Source of the DNA: a virus
Reading direction: 5' to 3' (one strand)
Length of the DNA stretch: 26,029 nt
Virus record (IMG/VR): IMGVR_UViG_3300009418_000105
Span: 1 to 26,029 of that record
In this document: in pieces, positions 186 through 22,228 of the stretch
Layout of the letters: each line of letters begins with the position of its first letter
Numbering within the stretch: the stretch's first letter is position 1
Program-made: the position numbers and the translations under genes
The notes under the pieces: generated by a model
Databases searched by the model: none
Told to the model about the DNA's origin: nothing
The model's input: only the letters and a program-made list of their open reading frames with translations

Positions 186-3100
186 CTACGGCCTCTCGCC
201 TAACACCTGTTCTATTAAATCTCTGTCTTCTCTGATGTCTGCCATTATATCCAGCATTTCCCGCAAGTGGTCGTCCCGTGTTTCAATCATTCGGTACAAC
301 ATGCTTCGCTTGCCTTTTTCAGAGAGGTCGCGCCTTTCAAGCAAGTCATCACGGTCCTCTCGCCATTCGTCCATGAATCTCTTCATATGACTCAAGCGGT
401 CCTTATGGCGTAAATACTCTTCGTGTTTTTCCTCGTATTCTTGCGCCTTGCCCTCTGGTCCGTAACGACGCCTCTTCTCGATCTGGCCTAATGTGGTTAC
501 AATTTTATTAACATCTTCCAGCATTTCGTAAAAGTCTTCTTGGTAGCCACCGCCCCTTGCGGGATCAAATAAAAGGTCGCCAAGCATAGGGGTATTGACA
601 AGCGTTTGGGTATTGAAACCCGACTCGCGCCCTCGTCTATCAAGGGGAGACAAGCCAACTATCTCACCAATCAACGGGATCGGGAAGTCGGCTGCCGTTC
701 CTACGATATTATCGTCGTGAAATTCGGCGGCAATACGATCTGCTGTTGCCAGCCCATACGCCCCTATCGTTCCAAAGTATTGGCGTAGCATGTATTCCAG
801 TTTCATTGGCGATGTAAGAAAATCCGCATTCCTGACGAGTGGAATCTTGTTGATGCCACCGGACAGTTTCTTGCTAAGATAACTGGTGTATGGATTGAAC
901 TGTTCAGGGGCAGATACACTTTCCGACATCCATGATGGTACGATCCTGTCTCGTTGGAATACGTCCCTGTTGTTCATTGCGTCCCACACGGGACGTATGA
1001 TCTGGGGTCTCAAGTCGAGACTGAGGGATGCCTGTACTTGACGCTTTACTTCACCCCTTACATCCCTGAAATCATGTTCTTCTTCCACAATAGCACGGGC
1101 TATCTGTTCAGGGATCGTCTTATACAGAACACCTACTTCAAACGGAATCGGGATCTTGACGCCCGGCATCCCATCTCCGAGAGGTATAAGCCACCAATCA
1201 TTTTTCATGTCCTCTCTGGCGTTCTTGTATTCCTCCTCGTCATGCATAGCCATGTAATAGAGAAGTGTCATACTTGAGATAAACAAGCCTCTTCCGAGTA
1301 CAACGCCCGCACGTCTCGCTTGATGCAACCCTGAGTCCGGGCGAATTCTTTTTTCGTTCGACAATATACCGGGCGCATCATAGGCACCCAAATGTGTTCG
1401 GGCCATGACATCAAGACCTTGGATTCGGCCATTCAGGAATGGTGCCATGGATGTTATGATACTGAACAACGGGTTGGACCCACGACGGCCATAGTTGATA
1501 ATCTCCATGGCCTCCAATGTTGCCTGCGCCGCATTGCCATCTGTTTGTGCCATTACCGTATCGTAGACGGCCATGCGGGTAGCCACCTCGGACTGTTTTG
1601 ACATGCGGCCCAAAGCGTCCCATGCCAGTAAAGTAATATCTATGGGACTTGACCATTTCATCTCGCCCTTTGAAAGCATCTTGACGGTCGTTGCCGTCGA
1701 TCTTGACGGGTCGGGTGACCAGTCAACACCGATTCCTAGTCCTCGTTTTTCCGCCTTCTCTACAATATCGGGATCAATGACATTTTGTAGTGTCTTGAAT
1801 ATCAACTCCATTCCGCCACCGAACGTGACGGAAGCCTGCATACTGTCCCTTATGATGTTCTTTAACTGGAATGCCGGTGATCGAGTTACCAACTCACGCA
1901 ACAATGTCGAAGATCCGACAACAATTCTGGAGAGACCCCTGTTAAGTCTTTCGCTCTCGCCAAGGACGGGTATCTTCCCGAAAAAGTCCTCTATCATTTG
2001 ACGGGGACTCAAGGCTACGGACATTGCTGATTTCGCCAGCATAGCGTCCGCAACCAGATATTCTTGCTCGGAGCCATTTTCAAGGATATTGGTTTCGAGC
2101 TTGATTTCGTTCGCCTCCAATTTCTTATGGTCTTGCAAGATATCTTCTAATTCTTCGCGGGTTGCGTTCGGCAGACGTTCCCTGACCTTAGCCAAGTCAG
2201 CTTTATATGTACTCTCGGTAATCCCCTTGGTCTTGACAATGAGTGATGTATCCCAGCCCTTGGCCTCGGCAATCTTTTTCTGCCTTCTCCTTATTTTCTC
2301 GATAGCATCAATCTCTGCTTTAAGCTCTTGCACTTCACTATAGCTTGGATGCTGAGATTCTTCTGTAATCTGTTTTTGCCCCATCGCGTCATCTATACGC
2401 TTCTTGAGAGCGTTGTATCTCCTGCGCTTCCATGCAGGAACGACGGCTAATCTAATGGCGGTACCGGAATTAACCTCGTCACGCATTGTCCGGCTTGCCG
2501 CAATGTTTTCCATTGATTGTTCAAGAATGGTCCGCACATTCTTGGTTACATTAAAAATTAGGTTGTCATTAATCTCGTGGAAGCTGCCATCGAGATATTT
2601 ATCGATAAGGGGGTCGCCTCTTACCGGCTCTCCTCCATGGTTGTCATACGCCGTCTCTGCGTCCTTCTTCTCCTGCTCTCTCTTCTGGTACTCTTCATTA
2701 TTTATGTTGACCAATGTGCCGTCACTCGCCAGTGCGTCTGGATGTTTTTTGCCTTCGGGATCAACCGGGTCTTCTTTCACATAGAATGGGATATAGGGCA
2801 TTGACTGCATGAAATCCTTGCGCGATTCGGAAACCAGCCCGGCGTCATGTGCAAACTGGATCAGGTGCCAATTGAAATCAGCATATTCCCGTTCAAATTT
2901 CAGGGCAGCAAGTGATGGTTTATCTCCATCTCCGGCCTCCCGGTTAACCCGATCTATTGTAGCAGCTACCTCATTATACCCCTTGTCTAACACATCTGTT
3001 GTTTCAGACTGATGTACCTTTCCTACTACAACGTCGTAAAAACTACCCTTTAGGGTGCCGTCCTTGAGTCTTCTTGTATTACGTTCTTCTTCCGGCCATT

Positions 3101-6100
3101 TTTTGCCCTTCTTACGAGGGTTTGCCCTTTCGTACAGGGCGTTCAGTTCCCTTATCCTCGTTTCAAGATCGAGAGCGAGATCGGCTTGGTTCTCTCTTCG
3201 GGCCATGATGAGATCATTGTGCGCCGATCTCATTGCGGTTTGGATTCCTTCCACTCGACGCATTGTCATATAGGTCATGACCATTCTTTGGGCATCACCA
3301 ACCTTTATCTCGCCCCACGGCCATTTCCTGCCGGGTCCATCAATCTCAACAATGGTTTTGAATATCTCGTTAAGACCCTTTACGGCCCTTCCCTCTCTTG
3401 TGAGTGGGACGTGCTGGAAGCCGCCTTTGACATAGCTGATCATCCCGTATTTCATAATGCCGGGAATAAAGTTCAATGCATTGTCAGCAAATCGCCATGC
3501 CGCTATCGCCGAATTCTCGGCAAGTACGCCTAGCGTGGTACCGTAACGCTTGACTTCCTTGTCATACGACTTCTTGCTCGACAGCCACTGGAAAATACGC
3601 TTGTCCATAAGGCGGCCCCTGAGCATCTCTTTTTTGGTGCGCGTGATGGCTTCCTCTAATTGGGCACCATTTTCTATTGTATTGCCGTCAGGGTCTTGGA
3701 GAGTCATTCCGTCTATAACTTGCTTGCCTCCGGGATCTAGTTCCGCCGTTATGATCCCCATGTCAGCAAATTCCTGTAGCAACAACTCTTCTTTCTCTGA
3801 CATGACAGAGCTATTATGACCAAACCGGAAACTGCGGAGATCTCTCGGTGATACTGGCATACGGTAGGCGAGGGCTCGACCGTCCTTTATCCTGAAATAG
3901 GCGTCAAGGGCGGCTGGCCCAACATTGCCGTCCTCTAGTGCAGCCAAATTGAGTACCGACAAGGACGTTTTTGGTGTACCGTCGATATCTGCCCGTGCCC
4001 TGAAGTCGTTGATAAGAGAATCTAGAAGAGATTCCGTGGGTTTTTTCTGTGATTCCTCGGCAGCGTCAACTCTCGACATAACGATTCTGTCGGCAACCTC
4101 TTCTATCTTATCCCTGTCTTTTGTCTTGATTGCCCGAATTAACTCTTTCACGTCTTCAGGCTTGGCACGATCAATAAGCTGAAGGTCTGCTGCCTTGCGC
4201 TCCAGCCTGCCCTCCCGCTCCCTGCGATCAACCAGTTCCCTGTTCTGGATCTTCTCGAAAACTCTTATGACGGGAAGGATATCGGTATCTTGTGCAGCCC
4301 CGGCCATTGCCTTGAATCGTCCCCTCAACTCACGCTTGATCTTGCCTATCGCCCCAACAGATTTTGCCGCCGGGATCTTGCCCTGAGCGAGTGCGTCCAA
4401 GATGTGTACGGAAGTCTCTTCTGTAAGGTCGGCATCCGTTTTATCTTGATATCCCTGTACATCCCTCACCCATTCGCGCCAAGTAAGGCCCTCGGCAGCG
4501 GCGTCCGGGTCAACTTCTACGGGAACCTTGGTGTGGCCGAATTTCTCTAGGGCCTTTCGTTCCCATACCTTCATGTTTTTGAGTATGTGGATATGGGCAC
4601 CCTCATGTGCCACGGCATGTTTCATGAGGTCATCAATATTGGCATCAGTAATCTTGCCAAACTCTCGTGCGATCTGTGAAAGATTGAATGTGATCTGATT
4701 GCCGTAATTCTGTAGAGAGGAAACTGCGCCGTTCGTATAGGCTGGCCTATATATTGGCTTGTTATTCTTATCCAACTTGAGCTTGGGCCTGCCGTTCTCC
4801 ATTACTACATTGCCCGTTTTCGGGTCCGTCTCCATCTCAAAGGCACCCAAGAAGGTGACATCCTCAACTTGCTTTCCAAGAAGTTCAGCATTTTGTTCTA
4901 TCTCGAAAACTATTTCTGTTTCGTTGGGAAGCCCGGCCTCCTTGATATATTTTATTGCTATATTTCTCCATTCCTTGATGGTCTTGCCTGCCACGACCAG
5001 ATTATCAACATCCTGCTTGCTTTCATGAGGCGATTTAGGAATAGCTCCCTCTTGTTTTTGTAGTCTCCTGAGTTCTTTGCGTCTTAGTAAATTCTCCCTG
5101 CCTATAGGACTTTTATCTTGTTGTTGTTGGGAGCCAAGAACGCGCTCAAAAACTGTCATCTTCTGAGCGTCACTCAGATTGCTCCACGAAAGATCATTGC
5201 CGACCGCATCATTCATCACCCGTTGGAAGGCTTTTGTTCGGGTCGGGTTCTTGGGTACGTCGTAGTTCTTTGCCTCAAGCGTTGCCTTGATAAGCTCTAC
5301 GTCCACCGGCTTACCCGCCTTGACAAGGTTATCGTAAATCTCTTTTACTTTTTTGAATGCCGGTTCGGCAAGTACCGTGGTCCAAGGCCCGGCATAAACC
5401 CTGTCCCTTCGTACAGGCTTGTCCTGTGACTTACTGTCCTCCAGCTTCCTATCGGTTTCGGGAATGGATCTAATGTTTATAATTTGATCCAAGGCACTAC
5501 TTGCATTCTTGGCATCTAACAAGGACTTAACCGTATTCTCAACTTCCCCGATGGACATGTCAGTGTCCCGTGGTCTACCGCTCAATTCTGCGATAAGGGC
5601 AGCCTGTTCCGGTGTCGCACCTATCCGGTCAGCAATAAGCTCTGGCGATTCCTGATCATTCTCCAGATTAGCGAGCCTTTGTTCTATCTCGGCTCTATCG
5701 ACACCCTTATTTTCTATCTGTAATTCCAACGCCACTTTTTGCAGATTAACGCCTTCTTGCCCGGAAACGGTTTCGGTCATCGGGGTTCTACTGTACTCAA
5801 TTCCCCGACCTTCGTATTCCAGATGCACGCCCGCAGGCTTCTTGTATTTGGTTTCTTCGAGTAACGCTGCTTCCTTTTCTTTGAGGATCTGCATTTTTTC
5901 GGACACGGCTGCTTGCTTCTGTTCCGCCTCTTCACGCAATTGCTCTAAGGCTTCCGGCGACAGTTCCCCGTCCTGAGCTTGTTGTCTTGCTTCGGCCCTC
6001 TTCTTGGACGATTCCTTCTCTGGGTACCTCCGACGGTACTCATCGAGGCGTGCCTTGGCATCAACATAACGGCCTTCGTGGTAGTCGAGGAGCGCCAGAC

Positions 6101-8150
6101 GTTCGAGTTCTAATTTCATTTCCTCCGTGCGGAGGAGGTTCTGCTCGTACTTGTTCTCGTCTATCCTTTCTTCCAATTCTTCCAATCCATCCAGCTTTTC
6201 TTCCAGAGCTTTAAGATTCTCTCCGTCTGGATCAACCTCGGCAGCAATCTCTTCAATGACTCCGTCTCTATTTTTGGGGCCTTTGAAACGAGCGGTGATA
6301 TGCTCCCATACCGCTCCCAGTTTATATGTGGGTGGTGAAGAAAGATGTTCTATACCGAGAGCAGGCTGTCCGGCAGACTCGATAGCTCGCTCCTGCGCCT
6401 GAACGCTTACCAAGAGTGTCTCAAGTTTTTTCTTATATTCAATTAGTTCAGGATCTGCCTTCTCGGCAATCTTCTTATCGACCTTGGCAATCTCCTCATT
6501 GACCATGTCAGAGGTGAGGACTTCCAAATCCAACTCGTCGAGTTCGGCCTGAGCCTCAGCATTGTCTTGCTCTTCGAGAACGGCGGGCATTGTACCATTC
6601 CAAGTCCCATTCTCGACCATCTTCAGGGCCTCTCGATACCTGATCATCTCCCTGCCGTAGTTTACCAGTTCATCTGCAAGTTGTGCGCTGTCTGATTCAT
6701 GTTGCTCTTCAATTTTCTTTTCCGCTGCTTCGCGTTGATTCTTTGTCTTTAATTTACGCTTGCTTAACCGCTTCAATCGATCATCGCGTAGTTGATCAAT
6801 CTTATTTTTCTGTTCGGCGTGTATCTCGCTAGCCCGCTTATCGATATCCGTGTCGTTGCCCGTGAGTACCTGTTGCCGGATTTTCTCTTGTTCCTCGGCG
6901 TGCGCCTTTTCCTCGTTATATTGGTCCTCAGTGATCTCTCCCTTATTGTAGCGTTCCTCAATAGCAGCGAAGTCCGGGCCGGTAACCATGTTATCGACTT
7001 CGTCGGCAGTGTATTTGCCGGTTTCGAGAGCATGTGTAAATGATTTGCCAGCTTCTACACGCGCCTGATATTTCCCGCCTCGTACCCTGATACCGGCAGC
7101 AGATCGCACATACATGGAAGCTATGATATCGGCAACGGCACCAACCTCACCGCCAATGATGGCTTCCTTCAGGGCTTCGGTGCCAGCATTTTCCAAAGCG
7201 TCTTCGTCGTAGAGAACCTTGGCTAGCACAGACTGGAGGAACCCTGCGCCACCTTCCTGAATGGCTTCCTCGGTAGCTTGCTGGGCAGCAGACTGGAACA
7301 TCTTGCCAGTTGTCATATCGATGCCCTTCTCAATTGCATCCGGGCCGAATCTCCCTGCGAGCCTGCTGACGGGCATCATTTCAGTCCACCCTAGACCAAG
7401 ACCGCCCAAGAGAGCCGCCACTTCCGTGCCCTTGCCGACATCCCTTCCGGTACGCTCCTCGTAGTCAGCGACCATTCCGGCCTGTTGGCCTGCGCCCATG
7501 AGCATCGCGCCCCCATAGGCCGCGTATGGACCTACATAGGGAATGAAGGCGGTTCCTGCCATGGCCGCTACCTGACCCAGTCCCATGGCTAGTTGTGGTA
7601 GGTTGGCGTCCCGGTACACCGGATCGATTTCGTCGTAGAGGTCTTGTAGTTTCTTTCTCAGTTGCTTTTCGCGAGCCGTATCCTTGTCGGGCGTAGCAAG
7701 TCCGAGGAGTCCCTGTTCGGCCATGAGCGCGAACTGTTTCGCTCCTCGTGGGAAGGCTTTTACGGCCTCAAAAGCAGATCCGAGAAGTGTGCCCTCTTTC
7801 TCTGGGACTGGGTCTTCTATACCTAACGAGGCAATGCCAGTCCTATCTCGGCCCGTCCGTGCGGCATCGTCCCCTCGTGTCGGGAACCCTCGTGTCGGGA
7901 ACCCGGAAGATTCCTGCCGCGTAGGGAATCCCCGCGTAGGGAATCCCTGCGTAGGGAATCCTGAAGACTCTTCTTGGGGAGAGAATCCTCTTGTAGGAAA
8001 TCCTCTTGTAGGAAATCCTGAAGATTCTTCTTGGTCGGGAGGAGGAGAACTGGACCCAGTTACCCTACGAATAAACCGGGCACGTTCCTCTGGGGACATG
8101 CCCGGCGGTATTCGCACAACCCTGCCGTCAGATAAGGTAATTGTTTCCAC
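186..8150 (-). CDS. Giant internal virion / polyvalent protein (2654 aa) with HEXXH zincin site and LPD38-like C-terminal half
   Basis: The start is GTG at 8150; a stop codon lies just upstream in frame, so nothing longer is possible except from a non-standard ATT. No clear ribosome site precedes it. Residues 1-30 form a short charged N-terminal module (SDGRVVRIPPGMSPEE). Residues about 45-93 are a GFPTR repeat array. Residues about 185-270 are Gly/Ala-rich and hydrophobic and could insert in a membrane. Residues about 395-1000 are charged and rich in predicted helix or coiled coil. HEGAH at residues 1182-1186 fits a zincin HEXXH, preceded by a strand-like NQITFNLSQI; Glu1244/1245 could be the third zinc ligand. 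YIPFYV near 1785, KNIIRDSM near 2097 and PFLNGRIQG further on are patterns I associate with the LPD38 family of large phage polyvalent proteins. T7 gp16, a well-studied ejection protein, is about half this length. Ejection with the genome is inferred; protease activity is untested. Confidence 0.85.
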   Translation of the reverse strand: METITLSDGRVVRIPPGMSPEERARFIRRVTGSSSPPPDQEESSGFPTRGFPTRGFSPQEESSGFPTQGFPTRGFPTRQESSGFPTRGFPTRGDDAARTGRDRTGIASLGIEDPVPEKEGTLLGSAFEAVKAFPRGAKQFALMAEQGLLGLATPDKDTAREKQLRKKLQDLYDEIDPVYRDANLPQLAMGLGQVAAMAGTAFIPYVGPYAAYGGAMLMGAGQQAGMVADYEERTGRDVGKGTEVAALLGGLGLGWTEMMPVSRLAGRFGPDAIEKGIDMTTGKMFQSAAQQATEEAIQEGGAGFLQSVLAKVLYDEDALENAGTEALKEAIIGGEVGAVADIIASMYVRSAAGIRVRGGKYQARVEAGKSFTHALETGKYTADEVDNMVTGPDFAAIEERYNKGEITEDQYNEEKAHAEEQEKIRQQVLTGNDTDIDKRASEIHAEQKNKIDQLRDDRLKRLSKRKLKTKNQREAAEKKIEEQHESDSAQLADELVNYGREMIRYREALKMVENGTWNGTMPAVLEEQDNAEAQAELDELDLEVLTSDMVNEEIAKVDKKIAEKADPELIEYKKKLETLLVSVQAQERAIESAGQPALGIEHLSSPPTYKLGAVWEHITARFKGPKNRDGVIEEIAAEVDPDGENLKALEEKLDGLEELEERIDENKYEQNLLRTEEMKLELERLALLDYHEGRYVDAKARLDEYRRRYPEKESSKKRAEARQQAQDGELSPEALEQLREEAEQKQAAVSEKMQILKEKEAALLEETKYKKPAGVHLEYEGRGIEYSRTPMTETVSGQEGVNLQKVALELQIENKGVDRAEIEQRLANLENDQESPELIADRIGATPEQAALIAELSGRPRDTDMSIGEVENTVKSLLDAKNASSALDQIINIRSIPETDRKLEDSKSQDKPVRRDRVYAGPWTTVLAEPAFKKVKEIYDNLVKAGKPVDVELIKATLEAKNYDVPKNPTRTKAFQRVMNDAVGNDLSWSNLSDAQKMTVFERVLGSQQQQDKSPIGRENLLRRKELRRLQKQEGAIPKSPHESKQDVDNLVVAGKTIKEWRNIAIKYIKEAGLPNETEIVFEIEQNAELLGKQVEDVTFLGAFEMETDPKTGNVVMENGRPKLKLDKNNKPIYRPAYTNGAVSSLQNYGNQITFNLSQIAREFGKITDANIDDLMKHAVAHEGAHIHILKNMKVWERKALEKFGHTKVPVEVDPDAAAEGLTWREWVRDVQGYQDKTDADLTEETSVHILDALAQGKIPAAKSVGAIGKIKRELRGRFKAMAGAAQDTDILPVIRVFEKIQNRELVDRREREGRLERKAADLQLIDRAKPEDVKELIRAIKTKDRDKIEEVADRIVMSRVDAAEESQKKPTESLLDSLINDFRARADIDGTPKTSLSVLNLAALEDGNVGPAALDAYFRIKDGRALAYRMPVSPRDLRSFRFGHNSSVMSEKEELLLQEFADMGIITAELDPGGKQVIDGMTLQDPDGNTIENGAQLEEAITRTKKEMLRGRLMDKRIFQWLSSKKSYDKEVKRYGTTLGVLAENSAIAAWRFADNALNFIPGIMKYGMISYVKGGFQHVPLTREGRAVKGLNEIFKTIVEIDGPGRKWPWGEIKVGDAQRMVMTYMTMRRVEGIQTAMRSAHNDLIMARRENQADLALDLETRIRELNALYERANPRKKGKKWPEEERNTRRLKDGTLKGSFYDVVVGKVHQSETTDVLDKGYNEVAATIDRVNREAGDGDKPSLAALKFEREYADFNWHLIQFAHDAGLVSESRKDFMQSMPYIPFYVKEDPVDPEGKKHPDALASDGTLVNINNEEYQKREQEKKDAETAYDNHGGEPVRGDPLIDKYLDGSFHEINDNLIFNVTKNVRTILEQSMENIAASRTMRDEVNSGTAIRLAVVPAWKRRRYNALKKRIDDAMGQKQITEESQHPSYSEVQELKAEIDAIEKIRRRQKKIAEAKGWDTSLIVKTKGITESTYKADLAKVRERLPNATREELEDILQDHKKLEANEIKLETNILENGSEQEYLVADAMLAKSAMSVALSPRQMIEDFFGKIPVLGESERLNRGLSRIVVGSSTLLRELVTRSPAFQLKNIIRDSMQASVTFGGGMELIFKTLQNVIDPDIVEKAEKRGLGIGVDWSPDPSRSTATTVKMLSKGEMKWSSPIDITLLAWDALGRMSKQSEVATRMAVYDTVMAQTDGNAAQATLEAMEIINYGRRGSNPLFSIITSMAPFLNGRIQGLDVMARTHLGAYDAPGILSNEKRIRPDSGLHQARRAGVVLGRGLFISSMTLLYYMAMHDEEEYKNAREDMKNDWWLIPLGDGMPGVKIPIPFEVGVLYKTIPEQIARAIVEEEHDFRDVRGEVKRQVQASLSLDLRPQIIRPVWDAMNNRDVFQRDRIVPSWMSESVSAPEQFNPYTSYLSKKLSGGINKIPLVRNADFLTSPMKLEYMLRQYFGTIGAYGLATADRIAAEFHDDNIVGTAADFPIPLIGEIVGLSPLDRRGRESGFNTQTLVNTPMLGDLLFDPARGGGYQEDFYEMLEDVNKIVTTLGQIEKRRRYGPEGKAQEYEEKHEEYLRHKDRLSHMKRFMDEWREDRDDLLERRDLSEKGKRSMLYRMIETRDDHLREMLDIMADIREDRDLIEQVLGERP
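7873..8016 (-). repeat. Hierarchical 15-bp tandem repeat array encoding GFPTR units
   Basis: Three blocks of 15-base units lie in frame near the start of the giant gene: 7987-8001 and 8002-8016 (two identical), 7917-7931, 7932-7946 and 7947-7961 (two identical, the third with one change), and 7873-7887 and 7888-7902 (two identical). Each unit encodes GFPTR or GFPTQ. Blocks are separated by spacers encoding versions of QEESS, and a degenerate GFSPQ unit follows the first pair. Units match within a block but differ between blocks at synonymous positions, which suggests local tandem duplication by slippage or recombination. Confidence 0.9.
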
Positions 8151-8177: not shown

Positions 8178-10199
8178 TTACTCTGGCTGTTCCTTTGCAA
8201 ACTCTGCCAGAACCATGTTGCGTCTCTCTTCGGGAAGTTCGGTCAAAGTCCGACGTAACTGCATTTCGTCGAGTTCTGAAGCGTCCTCCATTAGTCTACG
8301 TACAAGCTCTTGGTCACTAAGTTGCCCAAGCTCATTGACGTAAACCGATAGCTGTTCCTCAAATCCAGCCCCACCACTGACGCCACCCCTTCCTTCGGTC
8401 CATTTTGCTGTCGCTATGGGCAAGCCAAATCGCCCTTCTACTGCAGTAGGTATTATTCCGCTTGGACCCATATAGTACCTCTCCATTATTTTACGCAGCC
8501 TCGTTTGGTAGTTATCATACGCTGTTCTCTCCGGCGATCCCTCCTTAGCGAACCTGTCACCGGGAGCATATAACCTTGCGTCATTAACGAGGTTTTCAAT
8601 CACTTCTTGCATCGCCGGATCATGCCGATAATTCTCCGCTTGGATTTCTGCCGCCCCAAGTGCGGCCTCATAATCTATTCGGGCCGATTCCAGATCGACC
8701 GCGCCACGATGCCTTTCTTTAAGCAAGTCAATTTCCGACTTCATGAGATTTATTGCCTCTGTTCGTGGCAAGTTCGCAATATCCTGTAGGCGTTTCGTCT
8801 CAACATTACGATATGCCTCTTGCGCGGTGTTGTAGTCTATCATGCCCTTATCTAACAGGTCGGCGATTTCCTTAGTCTGCGTTGCAATATCCTCACGAAT
8901 TGTCTTGTCACGAGTGGTTATGCCAGTTATGACATTCTTGTATTTGTCAGGATCTCTGCTAGTGTCCAGCACCAATGAAGACAGGTCTCCAAAGAGTCTG
9001 GCTGTTCTCAGGCTATCTATCTCTTCGCCCGTCAACATTTGCTCATCAAGCTCTGCTAGTCTTTCCATGCGAGTACCGTACAGTTCTTCGTGGCCCAACC
9101 TTGTAGCCAATGCGGATGCCTCTCTGTGTTTTTCCGCAGCTATGTCTTCTGCGGTTCTTGTGGTCAGCAGGTCTCTGGTACCCTGAATTAGCTCCCGTCC
9201 CTCTTCTATATTGCCGCTAGGAACCCCGGACCAACTAGCTCTTCTAACCCCTGAGCCTGTTGTTGCAGGGAGAAGTTCAAATCCACTAAGCCTCTCCACA
9301 AGCGAAGCACGGCCCTCTTCCGCTTGCTGTGCTGCTCGTTCCTCTTCCGTCGGAACATCGAAGCCTGCTTGTAGGGCATGTGCGACCGGATCGAATTGAG
9401 GAACCTCGTCTGGATCTGCGCCCGCATCCCTTCGTTGCACCAGCCACGAAACCTCTTCATCGCTCTCGGCGTCCCTGATCCTCTCGGCAAACCGTATCTG
9501 ACGGTTTTGTGCTGCCAGTGCTTCTCTATTACGCCTCCTAGCTTGTTCAGGTCCAACGTCATGTGGGCCGGTTCGTCGAGGCACGGGTTCCTGACGACCC
9601 CTATAGTCTCCTAGCTCGACAGGGTCCAAGTCCCCTCGTCCCCTTATCCATTCTCGATGAGCTTCCGATTCACCACGCAGAAGTGATTCCGCTTCTTCCC
9701 TAGCCCCCGGAACCGCCGCATAAAGCCTCTCCACCGCCGTCAGACCCGAATCCCCTCCGAAACCTCTCCCTGCTTCTTCAATTTCTTCTTCGGTTGGATG
9801 AGAGCCGCCATGATAATAGCCCGGTATCAGGCCGCCAGATGCCGCCATCATTGGGGGCTGTGGACCCATGGGAGACTGTGGACCCATCTCTTGCGTGGCT
9901 ATGCCCCGCTGAAGATCGGCCATCTCCATCTGGTCGGGAGGCATCCCTGCGCCCATTGATGGATCTGCGCCAGTGATACCAGCAAACTCCTGTTTTACCT
10001 TATCGTCTACCGTGGGCGGGTTCGCTGCCTCGTGCTGGGCACGCCTTGCTTCGTCATCTGCACGAACCTTTGACCTACGACTCATCTCTAGGGTGATCGG
10101 ATAGGAATCAATCTCTTCGTTACCACCCTGAGTGCCAAGAGCCGTAAGCTCGGGATCAGAAAGATTTTCTAGGTATCGTTGTTGCTGAATTATATTCAT
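8178..10199 (-). CDS. Putative internal virion protein (673 aa) with GGLIPGYYHGG motif
   Basis: The ATG at 10199 follows a 40-base gap after the previous gene; its ribosome site is weak. The N-terminus (MNIIQQQRYLENLSDPELTA) and the following stretch with NPPTVDDKVKQEFAGI resemble N-terminal modules I recall in marine phage internal proteins: a short helix with SDPEL, then a basic helix. Residues about 80-120 are Met/Pro/Gly-rich and lead into GGLIPGYYHGG at 122-132, a motif shared with the next two genes upstream. The rest is charged and mostly helical, with no cysteine-rich or catalytic signature that I can see. Near the C-terminus QLSDQELVRRL echoes the N-terminal SDPEL segment. It sits between two other giant proteins in the inferred ejection cassette. 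No enzymatic function is recognisable; a minor capsid or scaffold role cannot be excluded. Confidence 0.85.
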   Translation of the reverse strand: MNIIQQQRYLENLSDPELTALGTQGGNEEIDSYPITLEMSRRSKVRADDEARRAQHEAANPPTVDDKVKQEFAGITGADPSMGAGMPPDQMEMADLQRGIATQEMGPQSPMGPQPPMMAASGGLIPGYYHGGSHPTEEEIEEAGRGFGGDSGLTAVERLYAAVPGAREEAESLLRGESEAHREWIRGRGDLDPVELGDYRGRQEPVPRRTGPHDVGPEQARRRNREALAAQNRQIRFAERIRDAESDEEVSWLVQRRDAGADPDEVPQFDPVAHALQAGFDVPTEEERAAQQAEEGRASLVERLSGFELLPATTGSGVRRASWSGVPSGNIEEGRELIQGTRDLLTTRTAEDIAAEKHREASALATRLGHEELYGTRMERLAELDEQMLTGEEIDSLRTARLFGDLSSLVLDTSRDPDKYKNVITGITTRDKTIREDIATQTKEIADLLDKGMIDYNTAQEAYRNVETKRLQDIANLPRTEAINLMKSEIDLLKERHRGAVDLESARIDYEAALGAAEIQAENYRHDPAMQEVIENLVNDARLYAPGDRFAKEGSPERTAYDNYQTRLRKIMERYYMGPSGIIPTAVEGRFGLPIATAKWTEGRGGVSGGAGFEEQLSVYVNELGQLSDQELVRRLMEDASELDEMQLRRTLTELPEERRNMVLAEFAKEQPE

Positions 10200-10239
10200 C
10201 TATCAATCACTTATGTGGTCACTTTCCCCGGACGCTGCG

Positions 10240-12819
10240 TTATCCTCCGAAAAACTTTGCTTCGCGCTGGGCTGCCGCTTCTGCTGCTGCTGCTGCTGCT
10301 TCCTGCTGCTGTTGATATCGATAATACGCGCCATATCCATGAGGGTCAGGTTGTCCAGCCTGTGGGTGCCCCTGAGGGAATACTGCCCCTGTTCGTGGGC
10401 TAGTTGTCTCCGGCTGCTGTCCGGGTGGACCACTGGGGAATAGGTCTCTGCCCAAACCCGCTAAAGAGAAACCATGTCTTCCCCCCGTTGTTTCTACGGG
10501 CTGATTCTGTGCCGCCCACATTCCTGCTCCTGCAATACCGGCACCGAGTGCCCTTTCTCCAGAAGAAAGCATCGGATTATATCTTGCCTGATGCGTGATA
10601 TTCTGGTAAGGCAGGCCGCTCATCTGTCTTCTCATCCAATCGAGACGTTTCTCAGGATCGTCCTTGGCCTTTTGCCATTCTTCTCTCGCAGTATCGTATC
10701 CAGCCTGTATACGTCTGGCTTCCTTCTCGCCAGCCGCACCCATTGTCCGCAGTCTTTCTAGCTGCTGTGCCTGTTGCTGGCCGCCCAGTGTTGCCTGTTG
10801 ACCACCTATACCAGCCAACTGTCCATATAGCCCTGCTTCACCGCCAAGGGCTCCCTGTTGGCCTCTCCATAGGTCAGACATAGTGCCAAAGCCCTGTTGC
10901 TGCATACCAGCCGCTGCCGCTTGCTGGGCTGCTTGCTGTGATGCTGCCTGTTGCTCTGCCGTCAACTGTTGTCCAGTGCCAGCAAATTGTGCTGCCCTGT
11001 CCGATTCAAACGCTGCTCTGGCTTCACGCTGTGCATCTGCGTAAGCCTTTCCGGTAACGTCGGCTATCTGCTGGGTTGTTTGCTGGCCTATCATCCCCTC
11101 TTCTATAGCTCGACGATATCCTCCCGTCCCGCCCATTGCGGTCTGGGAAGCTACCTCCGCCCTTTGACGCGCCGCCTCGTCTCGTATTGCCTGTATCTGA
11201 GGATCGAGTACGCCTTCAGTGTATTGTGAAACGTATGGGTCCAAGGCACCTGCTTCTCTCTGCATTTCTGGAGTAGCGGCCTGTTCGCCTATACTTCTGG
11301 CTCTTGCTGCAGCTTCTGCGCCAGCTTCAGTCATGCCAGCAGCAGCAGCCTGCGCCTGTTCCTGTGCCAATGGTGCGTAAGCACCAAACTTTCTTGCCAT
11401 CGCGGCCTGTTCTGGTGCAAGACTGCCAACTCCTCGTGCTGCATCACGCATTGTCTGTTCAGCTTGAAGTGTTGCTTGTGGACCTGCACCCTTTCCAAAT
11501 GCACCATAACCAGCCTGAGCAGCCGCCTCTAATTCGGTGGGTGCTGCAATAAATGGACCCTGATACGCTTCATACGGCCTTGTGCCAGCTTCCATAATGC
11601 CTGATTTAATAGCCGCCCAGTCTCCTGCCACCTCCGGTGAAACAAATGATTGGGTAGAAAAGAAGTCGCTTGGGCCGCCATATCCAGAATATGCGGCGGG
11701 CCTTGCGTAGTTTGGTGATACCGCTTGAGACTGATACCGTGGAGGAGCCGCAGTTTGCGGTTGACCCGGAGAAGGTTGCCCTCCACCACCCGGACTACCC
11801 GGTGGTCCAGTATCTGGACCGCCCGGCACGCCGCCTTGCTGCTGTTGATACTGAGCAAGTCCCGCCGGATCATTCAAGAATGGATCGGATCGTGATCCCG
11901 TACCAGCAGCAGTAGCGGGAGTCCATGGATCGAATCTACCACCACCCCATTGCGGGGCCGGTGGTCTACCCGACTGAGGGCCACCACCCGGACCACCCGG
12001 TTGCGCCATCATCATCCCGCTAGGCTGCTGCATTCCTCCACCCCATCCACCACCACCCGGTGCGGCAGGACCACCCATAAGTGGCTGTTTTCCAAAGCCG
12101 CCCGGAGGGGCTCCCATGGGCTGCTGCATTCCGCCACCCCACTGACCTCCGCCACCACCCGGTTGCATTCCCTTACTACCACCCCACTGACCTCCGAACT
12201 GATAGCCCGGAATCTTGCCACCCGCAGCACGACCCATTGCTATGGATTCATAAACCGAGGATTGCCTGTCTCTCGGACCGAGTAAACCTCTCACCCCTCT
12301 TATAAGTTTGTCTTCAAGAGCCCCAAACACTTCCCCTCCTTTATCCCAGCCACGGCGGGCGGCTGGCCGCAATCTATCCTCCACGGCTACCCCTATCCTA
12401 TCCAGAGTAGGTTTGCCAACCAGAGCCGTTATTCCTGCACTCGGCCCTTCCCTAGCCATGCGTTCCAACGCTGTTTTTATGCGGCCCCCAATACGTCGAT
12501 CAATGTCTCTCTGCCTCTGCTGATCCTCTGGCGAGAGTGGGCTAAGCGTATCACGGTTTAATAATAGTCTTGTCAGGTTAAATGGCTGTTGACCTATTCC
12601 CATCTCTCTCAAGGGAGAGTCCCCTCCGTAGTAGTCTCTCTCGACTGATTCTGCCCAATCCAGAGAATGTCTTTGGTCTCCATTTCTTCTAAGCTCCCTC
12701 TTAACCTTGCCCTTGATTAAATTTCTATTTATAGGAGTTTCTTGGGAAACAACGGACTTCAGTATTTCTGTACCTACCCCTACTTTTCCCCCACCCCGAT
12801 AACGATGTTTCTTACGCAT
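10240..12819 (-). CDS. Putative internal virion protein (859 aa), Gly/Gln/Ala-rich
   Basis: I chose the ATG at 12819 because GGTGAAG lies at the right distance and the start overlaps the preceding stop as ATGCGTAA. An in-frame ATG at 12831 would add four residues and is the alternative. The N-terminus is strongly basic (MRKKHRYRGGGKVG), then mixed helical to about residue 190. GGKIPGYQFGG (about 199-209) matches a motif in both flanking genes. Residues about 210-375 are Gly/Pro/Gln-rich and probably disordered. From about 390 the protein turns into Ala/Gln/Glu-rich helix, with LDPYVSQYTEGVLDPQ near 525 and WMRRQMSGLPYQ near 730, patterns I associate with long marine phage internal proteins. 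The end holds QQQQ followed by an alanine run and closes with AKFFGG. Function is inferred from position and composition only. Confidence 0.85.
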   Translation of the reverse strand: MRKKHRYRGGGKVGVGTEILKSVVSQETPINRNLIKGKVKRELRRNGDQRHSLDWAESVERDYYGGDSPLREMGIGQQPFNLTRLLLNRDTLSPLSPEDQQRQRDIDRRIGGRIKTALERMAREGPSAGITALVGKPTLDRIGVAVEDRLRPAARRGWDKGGEVFGALEDKLIRGVRGLLGPRDRQSSVYESIAMGRAAGGKIPGYQFGGQWGGSKGMQPGGGGGQWGGGMQQPMGAPPGGFGKQPLMGGPAAPGGGGWGGGMQQPSGMMMAQPGGPGGGPQSGRPPAPQWGGGRFDPWTPATAAGTGSRSDPFLNDPAGLAQYQQQQGGVPGGPDTGPPGSPGGGGQPSPGQPQTAAPPRYQSQAVSPNYARPAAYSGYGGPSDFFSTQSFVSPEVAGDWAAIKSGIMEAGTRPYEAYQGPFIAAPTELEAAAQAGYGAFGKGAGPQATLQAEQTMRDAARGVGSLAPEQAAMARKFGAYAPLAQEQAQAAAAGMTEAGAEAAARARSIGEQAATPEMQREAGALDPYVSQYTEGVLDPQIQAIRDEAARQRAEVASQTAMGGTGGYRRAIEEGMIGQQTTQQIADVTGKAYADAQREARAAFESDRAAQFAGTGQQLTAEQQAASQQAAQQAAAAGMQQQGFGTMSDLWRGQQGALGGEAGLYGQLAGIGGQQATLGGQQQAQQLERLRTMGAAGEKEARRIQAGYDTAREEWQKAKDDPEKRLDWMRRQMSGLPYQNITHQARYNPMLSSGERALGAGIAGAGMWAAQNQPVETTGGRHGFSLAGLGRDLFPSGPPGQQPETTSPRTGAVFPQGHPQAGQPDPHGYGAYYRYQQQQEAAAAAAEAAAQREAKFFGG
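10281..10298 (-). repeat. (CTG)6 trinucleotide run encoding polyalanine
   Basis: Six perfect CTG triplets on the plus strand read as six GCA alanine codons on the coding strand, inside the QQQQ-E-A6-E-AAA tail of the 859-residue protein. It is a plausible slippage site. It lies in frame, so length changes would alter only the alanine count. Confidence 0.8.
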
Positions 12820-15800
12820 ATTCTTCACCATATGGTTCCGGCAAAACTTCCTGTAAGTCGAGAGGAGGAGGCTGTTGTGGTGAGCCCGTCCGTCCCATCC
12901 TTACCTCGTCCTGCATTTGTTCTAGTATTGCGGCACCCTCATCCGTATTTCCATTACCTAGCCCACTGACCACGTCGGCAGCCACGATAAATTCGCCCTT
13001 GCTGAGAGCTACTGGCTGCGCTTCAGGGGTACCAGTATCGGCTGTAACAAGAACGTCATCTGCCATGCCGTCGCCCTCACCTGTCAGTAGTCCGCCTTCT
13101 TGCATGGGCATTTCCGGCCTTCCTAACTGCTGGGGTACCTGCATAGGCGGCATTGCCTGCTGAGTAGGTGGTGCCAATCCCTCTGCTAGTTTCAATAACT
13201 CTTCTTCGCCAAAGGCTTCTATATATCCCTGAATAATTTCAGCACTGCCCGGATCGTTTGGAGACATCAACGCCTTTCTGACTGCTGCCTCGACCTGACC
13301 CATTAATCCAGCGTCTATAGCACCACCTTCTGCCCTCCTGATGGGTGGCGCATAACTTTCAACGCGAGGTCTCTGGTTCATTCGCTGTAACATATCCGCA
13401 GTAGCACCAGATCCCGGAACGCCAGACCTCCTGAAGTCAGCCGCTGTTACGGGCATATTGGCGGGATCAAATCCCGGCCCGAATATTGTCGGCCCCTGAG
13501 TCTGTGCTGGCTGCCTTCTCTCGTCGAACAACCCAAGACTCGGTGGTGGAGGCGGCGGCGGTGCAGGGGCAGCAGGCGGCTGAGTTGTTGCCGGTTGGGT
13601 CGGAGTCGTTGGCCTACGTCCGCCTCTTCCTCCTCCTCTACGCCCCCCTCCTCTACGGCCTCCTCCTCTTTGTGTGCCCCTCGGTATTCGTGTACTAGCT
13701 AAGTCGGGATCTCCTGTTTCTCCGGGTCCGCCCCTGTCAAAGTCCTCATCAGTCATGTCCAGCCCCAGTCCCATGCTCATTGGGTCAATTCCCATCATGG
13801 GCGGTGGTGGAGGTGGTAGAGGTGCTGCTGCTGCCGTTTCTGGAACAACATCGGAAATATCATCTATATCCATACCCGGAGGTGGTGGTCCCATTGGTGG
13901 CGGACCAGCCATGGGCGTCACTTGAGGGCCACCACCCGGAGGTGTTTCGCCTGCCATCGCCGCCCTACGACGTTCACGTTCAAGGGGGCTTGGAATCGAG
14001 GAGGGTATGCTCGCCAGCATATCTCGCGTTAAGCCCGGAAATCCGCTAACGGTAGGTGCCGATGGAGGTCCCATCGGAGGCTCCACACCCGGAGGTGGCA
14101 TTGGCGGTGCCATCGGTGGAGCAGGTGGACCAGCCATTGGTGGCGCTGCCATGGGCGGTGGAGGTATAGCCGGAGGCGGCACTGGAGGGGCACCACCCGC
14201 TGGCGGAAGGTCCATAGGTGGCATTTGCGGAGGTACTGCGGCCATTGTGTCTGGTATAACATCAGCCATTTCCTCTAATCCCGGTCCCGGTGGTGCCGCT
14301 TCTACTGGAGGCAATACAGGGGCCGGAGGTGGAGGCTCAATGGGAGGTGCCGCAGGCGGTGGAGCAACTGGTGGAGCAACTGGCATTGGAGCCGGAGGAG
14401 CCGCAACTGGCGGAGCCGGAGGCATTGGAGCCGGAGGAGCTACTACTGGAGCAGCAGGCGGGGGCGGAGCCACTGGTGCTTGTGGCACTGGTGGCGGCGC
14501 AGCCGCTACTGTTTCCGGCGCAGCTTCCGCGACTTCTTGCATTAATTTTTGTTGCTCAACAACTTGATCAGCCTCATCGGCTTGTTGTTCTGCCTGAAGA
14601 GCTTCTATCTCGGCTATCTCTTTTTCTTCTGATCCCTTCTCTTTAGTAACAGCTTTCCTTGCATCCTCAACCCTAGTTTTTGCCTGTTTTGCCAACTTTT
14701 TGGCCTGCTCATCTATTGCCGAAAAATCGCCGACAGGAGGAATTGCTTCTGGTATTATCGGTGGCAATTCCATCGGTGGCGCAGCGACAGGAGCCGGTTG
14801 CGGGAACATAGCTGGAGGAGCATATGGCATAGTAGCTGCCATTCCCGGAGGCTGAACAGGTGGTGGTGGAAGCATAGGTGGTCCCATGCTAGGTGGCGGT
14901 CCCATAGGCGGAGCTACAGGTGGAGCCATAGGCAGCCGTGGTGGAGCAGCAGGAACTGGCATTGCCTGTGCTGGTCCCATCCTAAACGGTGGGAATCTGC
15001 CACCAACCTGATAACCCGGAACCATTCCACCGAAACGTCGTCTGGCGTACAGGCTGTCATATTCTGGAACCATTCCACCGCCAAAGCGGCCAACCGCAGG
15101 TTGAGGCTGTGTTGCTTGTGACCCTAACCCAAACCTTTGCCAAGTATTTGTAGTTACCGGGCCATGTATGGTTCCTACCTGCCCCGCTTGTGGCATGGCA
15201 CTGGGGCCACCCATCACACGAGTTCCCCCTCCTCCGCCTGCTCCAACATCAAGACCTTCACTCTCCCTCTGTTCTTCTAGGCTAGCTTTCTCAGCACTTA
15301 ATATTGCTGCCAACTGTCCCTTGCTTACTGAACCGCCTCCAGCCTTGAGGGCATTTTCAAGCTTGTCGCCAAAACTTAGACCTTTTATTCCACCTTCCTT
15401 CCAAGCGTCCTTTGCTGCATTTAAAGCCTTATCGAACGTATAGCCCGTCGCACCCGCTGATAGGGCATCAGTCCAACTACCACCTGCGACCTTAGTTCCG
15501 AGTGCGCTTATACCAGCAGACGCTAGCGGTCCTATACCGGGAATAAATGATACAGCGGCGGGAATAAGTTTCTTGAAGCCTTTTTTGATACCTCTCCATA
15601 AGCCACCAAAGATGAATGCGGGAACATAACCGCCATTGGCGTACACCATTGGGACCTCACCACCATCAGCGAGCCCGTAAGGAGGCATGTGTCCACCCCC
15701 AGCCAAGCCTATTATACCGCCAGCATTTCTCTGCATCGGCAATGAATGCCTACCACCAAGTCCGCCACCAAATACACCCAATTGAGGGCCGCCGCCTCTA

Positions 15801-16285
15801 CCACCACCCCAAATACCGCCACCACCACCACCACCTCTTCCCCCGCCCCCTGCTGGCGTGATTGTCATCTTCCATTCTTGTGGTGTCAGGGTTGGTGCTT
15901 GACCGCCTCCTCCACCCATAGGTTCAGGGTATGGACGCTGAATGTGAGGGCGACGCGGGTGACGACGACGAGGCTCATGGCCTATTGGTCTTACCATACC
16001 TATGTCAAAAGTGCGCCCGATGTTGCCTATGCCTGTGGGTGCAGCTATGGGAATTCCATAGTTGTCAGAGGGAGACATCACGTCTATCGCAGGCCCGGCG
16101 TGGGCCGGATCGAAACCGGGGAACTTCGCTCCTGCGTCCGAGGCGATCTGCTGCTGTCGTAACCGCTCCATCTGTTCCCTAAGTCCGCCAAGTCCGCCAA
16201 GTCCGGCACCGAAAATACCGGCGGATAGTGAAGAAGGAGAAGGACGCCGCTTGCCAAAACCGTAATCATACGCTATCGAAGTCAT
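12812..16285 (-). CDS. Putative internal virion protein (1157 aa), Pro/Gly-rich, with amphipathic, RGG-box and GEFIVAADVVS modules
   Basis: The ATG at 16285 lies two bases after the preceding stop (TAGATATG). In order: a short helix-forming N-terminus; a glycine run near residues 145-170; GGEVPMVYANGGYVPAF; then about 225-266 a basic amphipathic-to-hydrophobic stretch (GIKKGFKKLIPAAVSFIPG) that could bind membranes; FGGMVPGYQVGG near 418-429; a coiled-coil-like Lys/Glu/Gln stretch around 530-585; a long Pro/Ala/Met region to about 870; an RGG box (about 872-889); and a folded C-terminus holding GEGDGMADDVLVTADTG and LSKGEFIVAADVVSGLGNG. I recall the last block as a recurrent ending of large virion-associated proteins in marine phages. 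The skewed composition reflects low-complexity repeats, but the whole frame is open and ends properly. An internal or ejected role is inferred. Confidence 0.85.
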   Translation of the reverse strand: MTSIAYDYGFGKRRPSPSSLSAGIFGAGLGGLGGLREQMERLRQQQIASDAGAKFPGFDPAHAGPAIDVMSPSDNYGIPIAAPTGIGNIGRTFDIGMVRPIGHEPRRRHPRRPHIQRPYPEPMGGGGGQAPTLTPQEWKMTITPAGGGGRGGGGGGGIWGGGRGGGPQLGVFGGGLGGRHSLPMQRNAGGIIGLAGGGHMPPYGLADGGEVPMVYANGGYVPAFIFGGLWRGIKKGFKKLIPAAVSFIPGIGPLASAGISALGTKVAGGSWTDALSAGATGYTFDKALNAAKDAWKEGGIKGLSFGDKLENALKAGGGSVSKGQLAAILSAEKASLEEQRESEGLDVGAGGGGGTRVMGGPSAMPQAGQVGTIHGPVTTNTWQRFGLGSQATQPQPAVGRFGGGMVPEYDSLYARRRFGGMVPGYQVGGRFPPFRMGPAQAMPVPAAPPRLPMAPPVAPPMGPPPSMGPPMLPPPPVQPPGMAATMPYAPPAMFPQPAPVAAPPMELPPIIPEAIPPVGDFSAIDEQAKKLAKQAKTRVEDARKAVTKEKGSEEKEIAEIEALQAEQQADEADQVVEQQKLMQEVAEAAPETVAAAPPPVPQAPVAPPPPAAPVVAPPAPMPPAPPVAAPPAPMPVAPPVAPPPAAPPIEPPPPAPVLPPVEAAPPGPGLEEMADVIPDTMAAVPPQMPPMDLPPAGGAPPVPPPAIPPPPMAAPPMAGPPAPPMAPPMPPPGVEPPMGPPSAPTVSGFPGLTRDMLASIPSSIPSPLERERRRAAMAGETPPGGGPQVTPMAGPPPMGPPPPGMDIDDISDVVPETAAAAPLPPPPPPMMGIDPMSMGLGLDMTDEDFDRGGPGETGDPDLASTRIPRGTQRGGGRRGGGRRGGGRGGRRPTTPTQPATTQPPAAPAPPPPPPPSLGLFDERRQPAQTQGPTIFGPGFDPANMPVTAADFRRSGVPGSGATADMLQRMNQRPRVESYAPPIRRAEGGAIDAGLMGQVEAAVRKALMSPNDPGSAEIIQGYIEAFGEEELLKLAEGLAPPTQQAMPPMQVPQQLGRPEMPMQEGGLLTGEGDGMADDVLVTADTGTPEAQPVALSKGEFIVAADVVSGLGNGNTDEGAAILEQMQDEVRMGRTGSPQQPPPLDLQEVLPEPYGEEYA

Positions 16286-19202: not shown

Positions 19203-19502
19203 CTAACCCTCGCTGATACCGCCAGCATTGCCAACTATCAGATGCGGCACCGGATCATCAAGATCCCCACCCAGAACATCTCTGCCATCGATCCCAGCAG
19301 CCATTAACGCAAGTTGGAGTTGTGATTGAGATTCTTGCACTGCGACAAGGAGTTGTTTGATCAACTCTGCTTGTGGGGCAGAAAAATCTATCCTCACAGG
19401 CTCGGGTGTTGCCGGAGCGTTATCCTGTTCCCTTACTAACGCTGGCGATGCGCTCTTTGAGGTTTGCTGTTTCTGTTTCGACTGACGCGAGGCGTTCCCC
19501 AT
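19203..19502 (-). CDS. Conserved hypothetical protein (99 aa) overlapping the upstream gene by 83 bases
   Basis: I chose the ATG at 19502 (MGNASRQSKQKQ) because AAGGTGG sits six bases upstream at 19509-19515; an in-frame ATG at 19520 would add six residues but includes that site. The first 40 residues are polar and basic, likely disordered. A helical segment follows (QAELIKQLLVAVQESQSQLQ), then LMAAGIDGRDVLGGDLDD and PHLIVGNAGG. The helix and the DDPVPHLIVG ending look like real coding sequence rather than a frame shadow. The gene lies between a small membrane-anchored protein and the nozzle gene. No function is recognised. Confidence 0.65.
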   Translation of the reverse strand: MGNASRQSKQKQQTSKSASPALVREQDNAPATPEPVRIDFSAPQAELIKQLLVAVQESQSQLQLALMAAGIDGRDVLGGDLDDPVPHLIVGNAGGISEG

Positions 19503-19659
19503 GTTTATCCACCTTCTCATCTAGACGGTTAACAATACGTTCGATTTGCATTAGGGACTGTCTGGCCCCATTCAGTCCCGCCCTCACCCCACCATAGGCC
19601 GCACCTGCGGCAAGTGGAGCAGCGAGAACAGATATTATATTTGTCATACTAAGGTCCAT
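19420..19659 (-). CDS. Small membrane-anchored coiled-coil protein (79 aa), possible lysis accessory
   Basis: The ATG at 19659 is preceded by AGGT at acceptable spacing; a second ATG at 19647 has no such site. Residues about 6-28 (NIISVLAAPLAAGAAYGGV) are hydrophobic and small-residue-rich, suiting one membrane span. The rest is a coiled coil with a heptad-like pattern (QIERIVNRLDEKVDKHGERL, then SVETETANLKERI). One span plus a coiled coil can be a spanin-like or holin-associated protein, or a virion component. Its last 83 bases also encode the N-terminus of the next gene in another frame. The role is unproven. Confidence 0.65.
   Translation of the reverse strand: MDLSMTNIISVLAAPLAAGAAYGGVRAGLNGARQSLMQIERIVNRLDEKVDKHGERLASVETETANLKERIASVSKGTG
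19509..19515 (-). promoter_or_regulatory. Ribosome binding site for the gene starting at 19502
   Basis: AAGGTGG on the coding strand lies six bases before the ATG at 19502 and inside the coding sequence of the upstream gene. It decides the choice of this start over the ATG at 19520 and supports the reality of the overlapping gene. Confidence 0.6.
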
Positions 19660-21805: not shown

Positions 21806-22228
21806 CTAAAGTGTCCAAGTCCATATATGAACCAACAATGGACCTGCAATGTTCATAATGCCATCGATTCCCCACCCACTGGGAACCTTCCACTTGCCTT
21901 CCGTTTTTTCCTTTGCGTTTTGACGCCAGTTCCCCCAACCCCTCACAAGATAATATAGGAGTGCGGCAGCCGACCCCATCTGTGCCATGTCCGCCGAACT
22001 TTCCGGCAATACCATTCCCCACAATACGAAGTAGCCTGTCATCAACAAGGCCACGAATATGTGGGATACCCAAACCATCCACCGGGAGCCGCCCTTCAAG
22101 AATCTTGGCAACCACGGCCAAATAAACCTACTGAACCACCTATCTATCCTAGCAAAATTATCAATAATCGAAGCCCAAATAAGAAACAGTACATGAAGAA
22201 CCAAGACCACCATGGATATTGTATTCAA
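21806..22228 (-). CDS. Integral membrane protein (140 aa) with about four spans, TTG start
   Basis: The start is TTG at 22228: GGAGG lies six bases upstream (22235-22239), whereas the internal ATG at 22213 has no ribosome site. Hydrophobic segments lie at about residues 6-25 (MVVLVLHVLFLIWASI), 53-74 (WMVWVSHIFVALLMTGYFVL), 80-98 and 122-140, separated by basic, tryptophan-rich stretches. It sits between the small virion genes and the tail fibre. It could be a holin or another inner-membrane protein active late in infection; neither length nor motif settles this. I do not recognise a named family. Confidence 0.75.
   Translation of the reverse strand: MNTISMVVLVLHVLFLIWASIIDNFARIDRWFSRFIWPWLPRFLKGGSRWMVWVSHIFVALLMTGYFVLWGMVLPESSADMAQMGSAAALLYYLVRGWGNWRQNAKEKTEGKWKVPSGWGIDGIMNIAGPLLVHIWTWTL

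Follow-up and report, generated by a model that had tools for sequence, protein, structure and literature searches.

Phage polyvalent proteins, as surveyed by Iyer et al. (2017, PMC5512222), are very large chains encoded in a late-gene setting. In the parts of the survey drawn on here, a zincin-like MPTase is named as their commonest domain, and LPD38 is reported solely in phage-type proteins. One LPD38 protein, the DarB-like gp69 of Burkholderia phage JC1, is a proven virion protein, for which 51 unique peptides were identified in virions purified with CsCl (PMC9144972). A further point of comparison is the N4 virion RNA polymerase (vRNAP) gp50 of the Schitoviridae, in which an N-terminal injection domain is followed by a middle part, a HExxH domain and a large C-terminal part.

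The DNA analysed here, a 26,029-base IMG/VR virus record to which we refer as the window, carries on its minus strand a giant open reading frame (ORF) at 186..8150, which starts with GTG and encodes a polyvalent/ejection-type protein of 2654 amino acids. The initial annotation had reported this ORF, leaving its strand unstated. The same ORF is intact, with identical architecture, in the sister record L001, which is 99.96% identical to the window over 15.7 kb (7 mismatches). Upstream of the GTG start a clear Shine-Dalgarno sequence was not found; the start is supported by the resemblance of the window N-terminus, (M)ETITLSDG, to the N-terminus MPETIRLPDG of relative L011.

Like the surveyed polyvalent proteins, the product is a very large multi-domain chain, with an N-terminal module (N-module), a zincin and LPD38 in its 2654 residues, and its gene has a late, structural setting, with adaptor, virion and tail-fibre-like genes upstream and, in L001, an endolysin gene downstream. 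It differs from them in that its zincin is covered by no Pfam or NCBIfam model and in that no second enzyme was recognised; other enzymes occur in its relatives. By these tests the window protein belongs to LPD38 and, with delivery as a prediction, to the phage polyvalent proteins. With JC1 gp69 it shares a C-terminal LPD38 and giant size, but gp69 has 4515 residues and lysozyme-like, methylase and helicase domains, none of which Pfam found in the window protein; the adenine methylase and SWI2/SNF2 helicase of DarB-like proteins are likewise missing from its Pfam matches. The arrangement of parts resembles that of N4 gp50. Unlike gp50, however, the window protein has no RNA polymerase domain (across the pool searched with the N4 RNAP profile, this protein included, the best match had E 0.18, and no member of the family matches that profile), and the two zincins are kin at the superfamily level only. 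By analogy, the window protein may work like the N4 vRNAP, without being one. It combines a zincin clade that no Pfam or NCBIfam model covers with a bridge to N4 that is probably new. Neither the fixed chassis of N-module, zincin and LPD38 nor the N4 kinship of the N-module is described in the sections of the 2017 survey cited here (PMC5512222).

LPD38 and the conserved architecture of the relatives

The Pfam LPD38 domain (PF18857) was detected at residues 2305-2481 (708..1238, minus strand) with 99.8 bits and E 2.7e-28, above the curated Pfam cut-off of 27 bits that defines membership. The HMM comparison that had been suggested for the C-terminal region thus gave a significant result. The initial annotation had spoken of an LPD38-like C-terminal half; this holds in that homology with other LPD38 proteins spans about residues 1977-2634, but the Pfam domain itself is limited to 177 residues. 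Within the C-terminal half (residues 1346-2654; 189..4115, minus strand), a core at 2040-2600 is conserved in isolated phages and viral contigs. Apart from LPD38, searches of Pfam, PHROGs, NCBIfam and PADLOC with the 2654-aa protein returned nothing significant.

When isolated phages were searched by BLAST, only the C-terminal half was recognisable, in 40 records at 21-28% identity that included Vibrio, Pelagibacter, Escherichia, Planktothrix, Aeromonas and other phages. The N-terminal parts of these proteins vary: D274 carries a ResIII helicase and a methylase-like domain, Pag-Yong1 a sub-threshold ART and two HEXXH motifs, and the Pondi protein neither ART nor HEXXH. HEXXH is also absent from the LPD38 relatives of PTXU04 and phiARM81mr. 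Queries of the viral contigs with the entire protein, or with just the zincin, yielded the sister strain only, and profiles were needed; a C-half profile fetched 80 viral loci, to which a zincin profile added two more full relatives. Among the 54 relatives scored 5'-complete, which had been selected for their similarity to the window protein, so that the fractions are valid for one branch and not for all LPD38 proteins, the zincin profile matched 52 and the N-module profile 48. The two relatives without a zincin were L042, in which both modules lie in an upstream ORF, and L020, which starts at a contig edge. Wherever all three parts were present (48/48), their order was N-module, zincin, C-half. 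The family zincins fall into 34 clusters at 60% identity, and the constant order is therefore not a matter of redundancy. ART, GNAT, NUDIX, ASCH and ParB domains occur sporadically among the relatives. L042, with one ORF for N-module and zincin and another for LPD38, was considered as a naturally split form and set aside, as the separation depends on one in-frame stop at 9635-9637, which may be a nonsense mutation, a sequencing error or a natural split.

In bacterial genomes, the zincin profile gave strong matches only in two marine MAG contigs (L100 and L101) and weak ones in two others. Prophage LPD38 proteins mostly had different N-terminal parts, and many were without HEXXH. A zincin of the window type was not found in bacterial genomes, and those with LPD38 relatives were too diverse to name a host. 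A tblastn search of 50,697 phage records with one family zincin returned one weak match, in Ruegeria phage 45A6. Its protein ANH49087.1 (3912 aa) has all three modules of the window protein, namely the N-module (E 5e-22), a zincin with HESIH at 2856 (E 8e-28) and the C-half (E 1e-29), but it is longer, very divergent and annotated as hypothetical. Eight relatives (L023, L027, L028, L031, L050, L053, L057 and L060) have GHEGRHR or SHEGRHR downstream of the zincin, a separate conserved motif that merely resembles HEXXH.

The zincin domain: motif, ligands and predicted fold

The initial annotation had pointed to HEGAH at residues 1182-1186, preceded by a strand-like NQITFNLSQI and followed by Glu-Glu at 1244-1245. 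All of these are in the sequence, with NQITFNLSQI starting at residue 1151. HEGAH (4593..4607, minus strand) is the sole HEXXH in the 2654-aa protein, 0.046 being expected from composition. His1182 and His1186 are predicted zinc ligands and Glu1183 is the predicted catalytic residue. In alignment A4, which comprises 47 sequences that are mostly 14-25% and at the lowest about 13% identical to the window protein, every row (47/47) has H1182, E1183, H1186 and E1245; the rows were mostly picked for having HEXXH, so that the invariance of this motif is partly built in, whereas that of E1245 is not. A count based on profile matches is free of this bias, and here HEXXH was kept in place in 50 of the 52 relatives with a zincin domain. 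Likewise, an HEXXH somewhere in the protein was present in 50 of 52 relatives scored 5'-complete, against 0.4 expected, and the motif is thus not due to chance. Loss of HEXXH, which had been named, for close homologues, as an outcome that would speak against a zincin, was confined to two diverged relatives.

For the third zinc ligand, Glu1244 and Glu1245 had both been put forward. Since Glu1245 (4416..4418, minus strand) is invariant but position 1244 is Glu in only 42 of the 47 sequences, the proposal stands for Glu1245, which is the likely ligand, and not for Glu1244. The two relatives that lost HEXXH, L043 (DAQVIH) and L068 (DGNVIE), both have Ser in the E1245 column. HEXXH and Glu1245 lie about 60 positions apart, and their joint loss is what a single metal site predicts. 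Both relatives retain the whole domain minus the zinc site. Each also holds another HEXXH elsewhere, as do 14 of the 52 relatives when HEGRHR motifs are left out. A rule by which the active zincin is lost only if a second HEXXH is present was considered and given up as a hint only, with two cases and a chance probability of about 0.07.

An alignment-based AlphaFold2 model of residues 1045-1345 (4116..5018, minus strand) had a mean pLDDT of 64.9 and a pTM of 0.57, with block means of 86-96 at about positions 151-210. In model numbering, a long helix and strands are followed by the helix with HEXXH (125-146) and, further on, by a helix (195-211) that bears E1245. In a second-look structural alignment, zincins made up most of the top 50 entries, the best being Acel_2062 (3e11; Z 8.0, 93 residues, 2.4 A), with selecase (4qhh), the catalytic domain of anthrax lethal factor (4pkt) and PPEP-2 (6fpc) at Z 6.9, 6.6 and 6.4, respectively. 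Other zincins among the top 50 were PPEP-1, PPEP-3, YbeY, PprI, PepO and M1 peptidases. The four named structures share the common zincin core with the model at 8-16% identity, which is a likeness of fold only, and none of them is a phage ejection protein. As single Z values fall within the range reachable by common arrangements, it is the consistency of the fold class, taken with the ligands, rather than any one Z, that makes the zincin assignment persuasive.

Sequence-level searches were silent on this domain: no Pfam or NCBIfam model matched the zincin, and a PDB-sequence search with the zincin, N-module and C-half profiles gave nothing significant. Foldseek alone matched the zincin model strongly to one viral entry, A0A516M4V9, and to no PDB entry with E under 0.19. 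A single-sequence fold of residues 1014-1450 (pLDDT 45) was discarded. The fold prediction and structural search that the initial annotation had asked for, here run on residues 1045-1345, thus agreed with the ligands and with their joint loss on the zincin arrangement that it had claimed. We conclude that the assignment of residues 1045-1345 as a zincin is well supported, with proteolysis as a prediction from sequence and model. Arg1309 (4224..4226, minus strand), in a motif after the zincin with the family consensus IESGxxGxRxRG, is conserved in 45 of 47 sequences. This motif was considered as a self-cleavage site, and the idea was dropped because the motif is kept in both relatives with a dead zincin.

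The N-terminal module and its probable kinship with N4

The N-module, a Gly/Ala-rich segment at residues 110-356 (7083..7823, minus strand), shows invariant EG-like and QE motifs in alignment A6. Before it, residues 45-92 (7875..8018, minus strand), near the start of the protein, consist of GFPT[RQ] pentapeptides, a low-complexity linker encoded by 15-base tandem repeats at 7872-8027. Behind it lies a variable charged region at residues 357-1044 (5019..7082, minus strand), which differs among the relatives and gave no match in Pfam, PHROGs (at a significant level), NCBIfam or PADLOC.

When N-modules were compared with PHROGs, 18 of 33 members fell into phrog_10691, a family of unknown function, and three matched the virion RNA polymerase family phrog_2206 (best E 0.0014). 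For profile comparison, an alignment of 14 N4-like vRNAPs was cut into 17 tiles. The best tile for the N-module of the window family was N4 residues 201-600, with a score of 37, reversed tiles reaching no more than 22 (direct P 2.4e-4), and the best for the zincin was N4 2001-2400, which holds the HExxH domain C1 (43.9 versus 23.9; P 3.8e-5). An HMM of N4 residues 250-500 matched the N-terminal parts of 20 ORFs at E<1e-3 (best 3.8e-27), of which 19 were LPD38 proteins of bacterial contigs; reversed sequences reached 0.12 at best. After these intermediates had been added, hhalign scored the N-module against N4 at 45.4 (P 8e-6, probability 84%), with a decoy maximum of 17.4. An injection-type N-terminal domain was thus found by profile-profile comparison far above decoys, and the N-module is probably related to the injection (lipid-binding) N-terminal domain of the N4 vRNAP, which would bridge LPD38 proteins and N4.

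This domain of N4 has been described before. The N-terminal region is involved in protein injection according to the 2017 survey (PMC5512222), a review of N4 links it to membrane association and to injection of the genome (PMC4496689), and a 2025 preprint terms it lipid-binding (PMC12633501). Searches with the N4 N-terminal region and polymerase domain recovered, as far as the survey is cited here, the RNAP module alone (PMC5512222), and the link of the N-module to LPD38 proteins therefore appears to be new relative to the cited literature. A kinship of the LPD38 half with the C2 part of N4 looked plausible by eye; the match was weak and no better than decoys, and the claim was dropped. Besides the family zincin, L073, L074, L075 and L064 have at about residues 1090-1230 another HEXXH, which follows the N4 C1 pattern ([IVL]LHExxHxxT) and which the N4 C1 profile matched with a best E of 1e-4.

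Gene setting and proposed role of the zincin

The giant gene sits between tail genes and lysis genes, a position that in podoviruses is occupied by the genes for internal virion (ejection) proteins. The structural genes upstream on the same strand code for an SU10-type adaptor, for a virion structural protein assigned to phrog_3287 and for a tail-fibre-like protein. Directly upstream of the giant gene (8178..16285, minus strand) lie the genes of three large proteins of 673, 863 and 1157 residues, whose sequences are partly of low complexity. From their position and shared motifs, we propose these three neighbours as co-ejected partners; a family match for the 673-aa protein was not found. Beyond the giant gene, L001 encodes a small protein that contains a hydrophobic stretch, followed by an endolysin (phrog_894) and a possible spanin, and further on it has genes that by eye are ParB-like and helicase-like.

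The reading we favour, with a little more confidence than doubt, is that the window protein is an ejection protein of a short-tailed phage resembling N4 gp50, and that its zincin most likely processes its own chain or co-ejected partners. The protein would probably be made together with the late structural proteins, packed inside the capsid, perhaps via its C-terminal half, and passed through the tail with the DNA or ahead of it. The N-module would engage the membrane during delivery, and the zincin would cut the chain to which it belongs, or the partners ejected with it, so that parts come free in the course of delivery or afterwards. That the protein is of the injected kind, as the initial annotation had it, is in keeping with the kinship of the N-module to the N4 injection domain and with an LPD38 protein in JC1 virions. 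Of 54 relatives, 52 have the zincin, which wherever all three parts occur lies between N-module and C-half (48/48), and other cargo is sporadic; this suggests a constant job such as processing. From this pattern, we prefer processing over host trimming, which the initial annotation had ranked as its equal. The N4 vRNAP, the protein with the most similar layout, is however reported as packaged unprocessed in the literature portions cited here, which counts against processing. In addition, HEXXH is lacking from many LPD38 proteins, both in prophages and in isolated phages, so that the zincin is dispensable for the chassis as such, and as it is the only visible enzyme in the 2654-aa protein there is no recognised cargo to release. 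Confidence in the domain model, with its mean pLDDT of 64.9, is also no more than moderate.

As the sole recognisable enzyme, the zincin could instead be an effector, injected to cleave proteins of the host envelope, of host defence or of host signalling, phage-chain processing not being its job. Other effector-type domains such as ART-PolyVal in relatives, the secreted proteases among the fold matches and the 2017 survey, which in the part cited here counts action on host targets among the options for domains of this sort (PMC5512222), are all consistent with this. However, near-universal presence at a fixed position throughout a diverse branch would be unusual for an effector, and the active site was lost only in proteins with another HEXXH, which may be chance (about 0.07); we regard a host effector as unlikely, yet as the main rival and a serious one, since this particular protein shows no other enzyme. 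Rather less likely still is a zincin fold that is kept for structure or regulation, such as packing, refolding or contact within an ejection protein, with little or no proteolysis. In the N4 vRNAP, reported as packaged uncut, a HExxH domain occupies the corresponding position, and regulation of the polymerase is reported for the C-terminal domain (PMC12633501); L043 and L068 retain the entire zincin domain although the zinc site is gone. Active-site residues would, however, be lost more often from a domain with a purely structural role, and the invariance of four of them in 47 of 47 sequences down to about 13% identity speaks against it. That the giant protein stays outside the virion and acts late in the infected cell would fit an uncultured phage whose giant gene adjoins lysis genes, but is very improbable given gp69 in JC1 virions and the relation of the N-module to the N4 injection domain.

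Going beyond processing in an ejection protein, we tentatively suggest, as a view that we hold to be on the unlikely side, that LPD38 polyvalent proteins and N4-type vRNAPs derive from one old chassis in which the zincin is the release protease that acts after entry. Such a chassis would consist of an injection head, an exchangeable payload, the zincin and a packaging tail. These findings bear on the question of how very large proteins, several hundred kilodaltons in mass, get through the narrow tail of a phage and how their parts are then set free in the cell. To judge from an injection head common to the N4 polymerase and LPD38 proteins, many giant phage proteins annotated as 'hypothetical' may be ejection proteins with swappable middles, and the unmodelled zincin clade is a possible release protease. 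Ruegeria phage 45A6 offers a cultured phage in which ejection and release can be tested.

Several features of the neighbouring genes were observed along the way. The three large neighbours (8178-10199, 10240-12831 and 12812-16285, minus strand) have GG-x-[IVLM]-P motifs in common, often followed by G/A-Y/F as in GGKIPGYQFGG, with seven copies in total and zero in the 2654-aa protein; the motif is possibly a shared packing or recognition tag. The genes for the 1157-aa and 863-aa proteins overlap by 20 bases (12812-12831) in different frames. In the tail-fibre-like gene (19702-21789), a 291-base unit is present twice at 20747-21316 with 77% matches. Beside this gene lie small overlapping ORFs at 19203-19659 and 21806-22228 (minus strand); one such ORF has a hydrophobic start followed by a coiled-coil-like stretch, and by eye they look holin-like.
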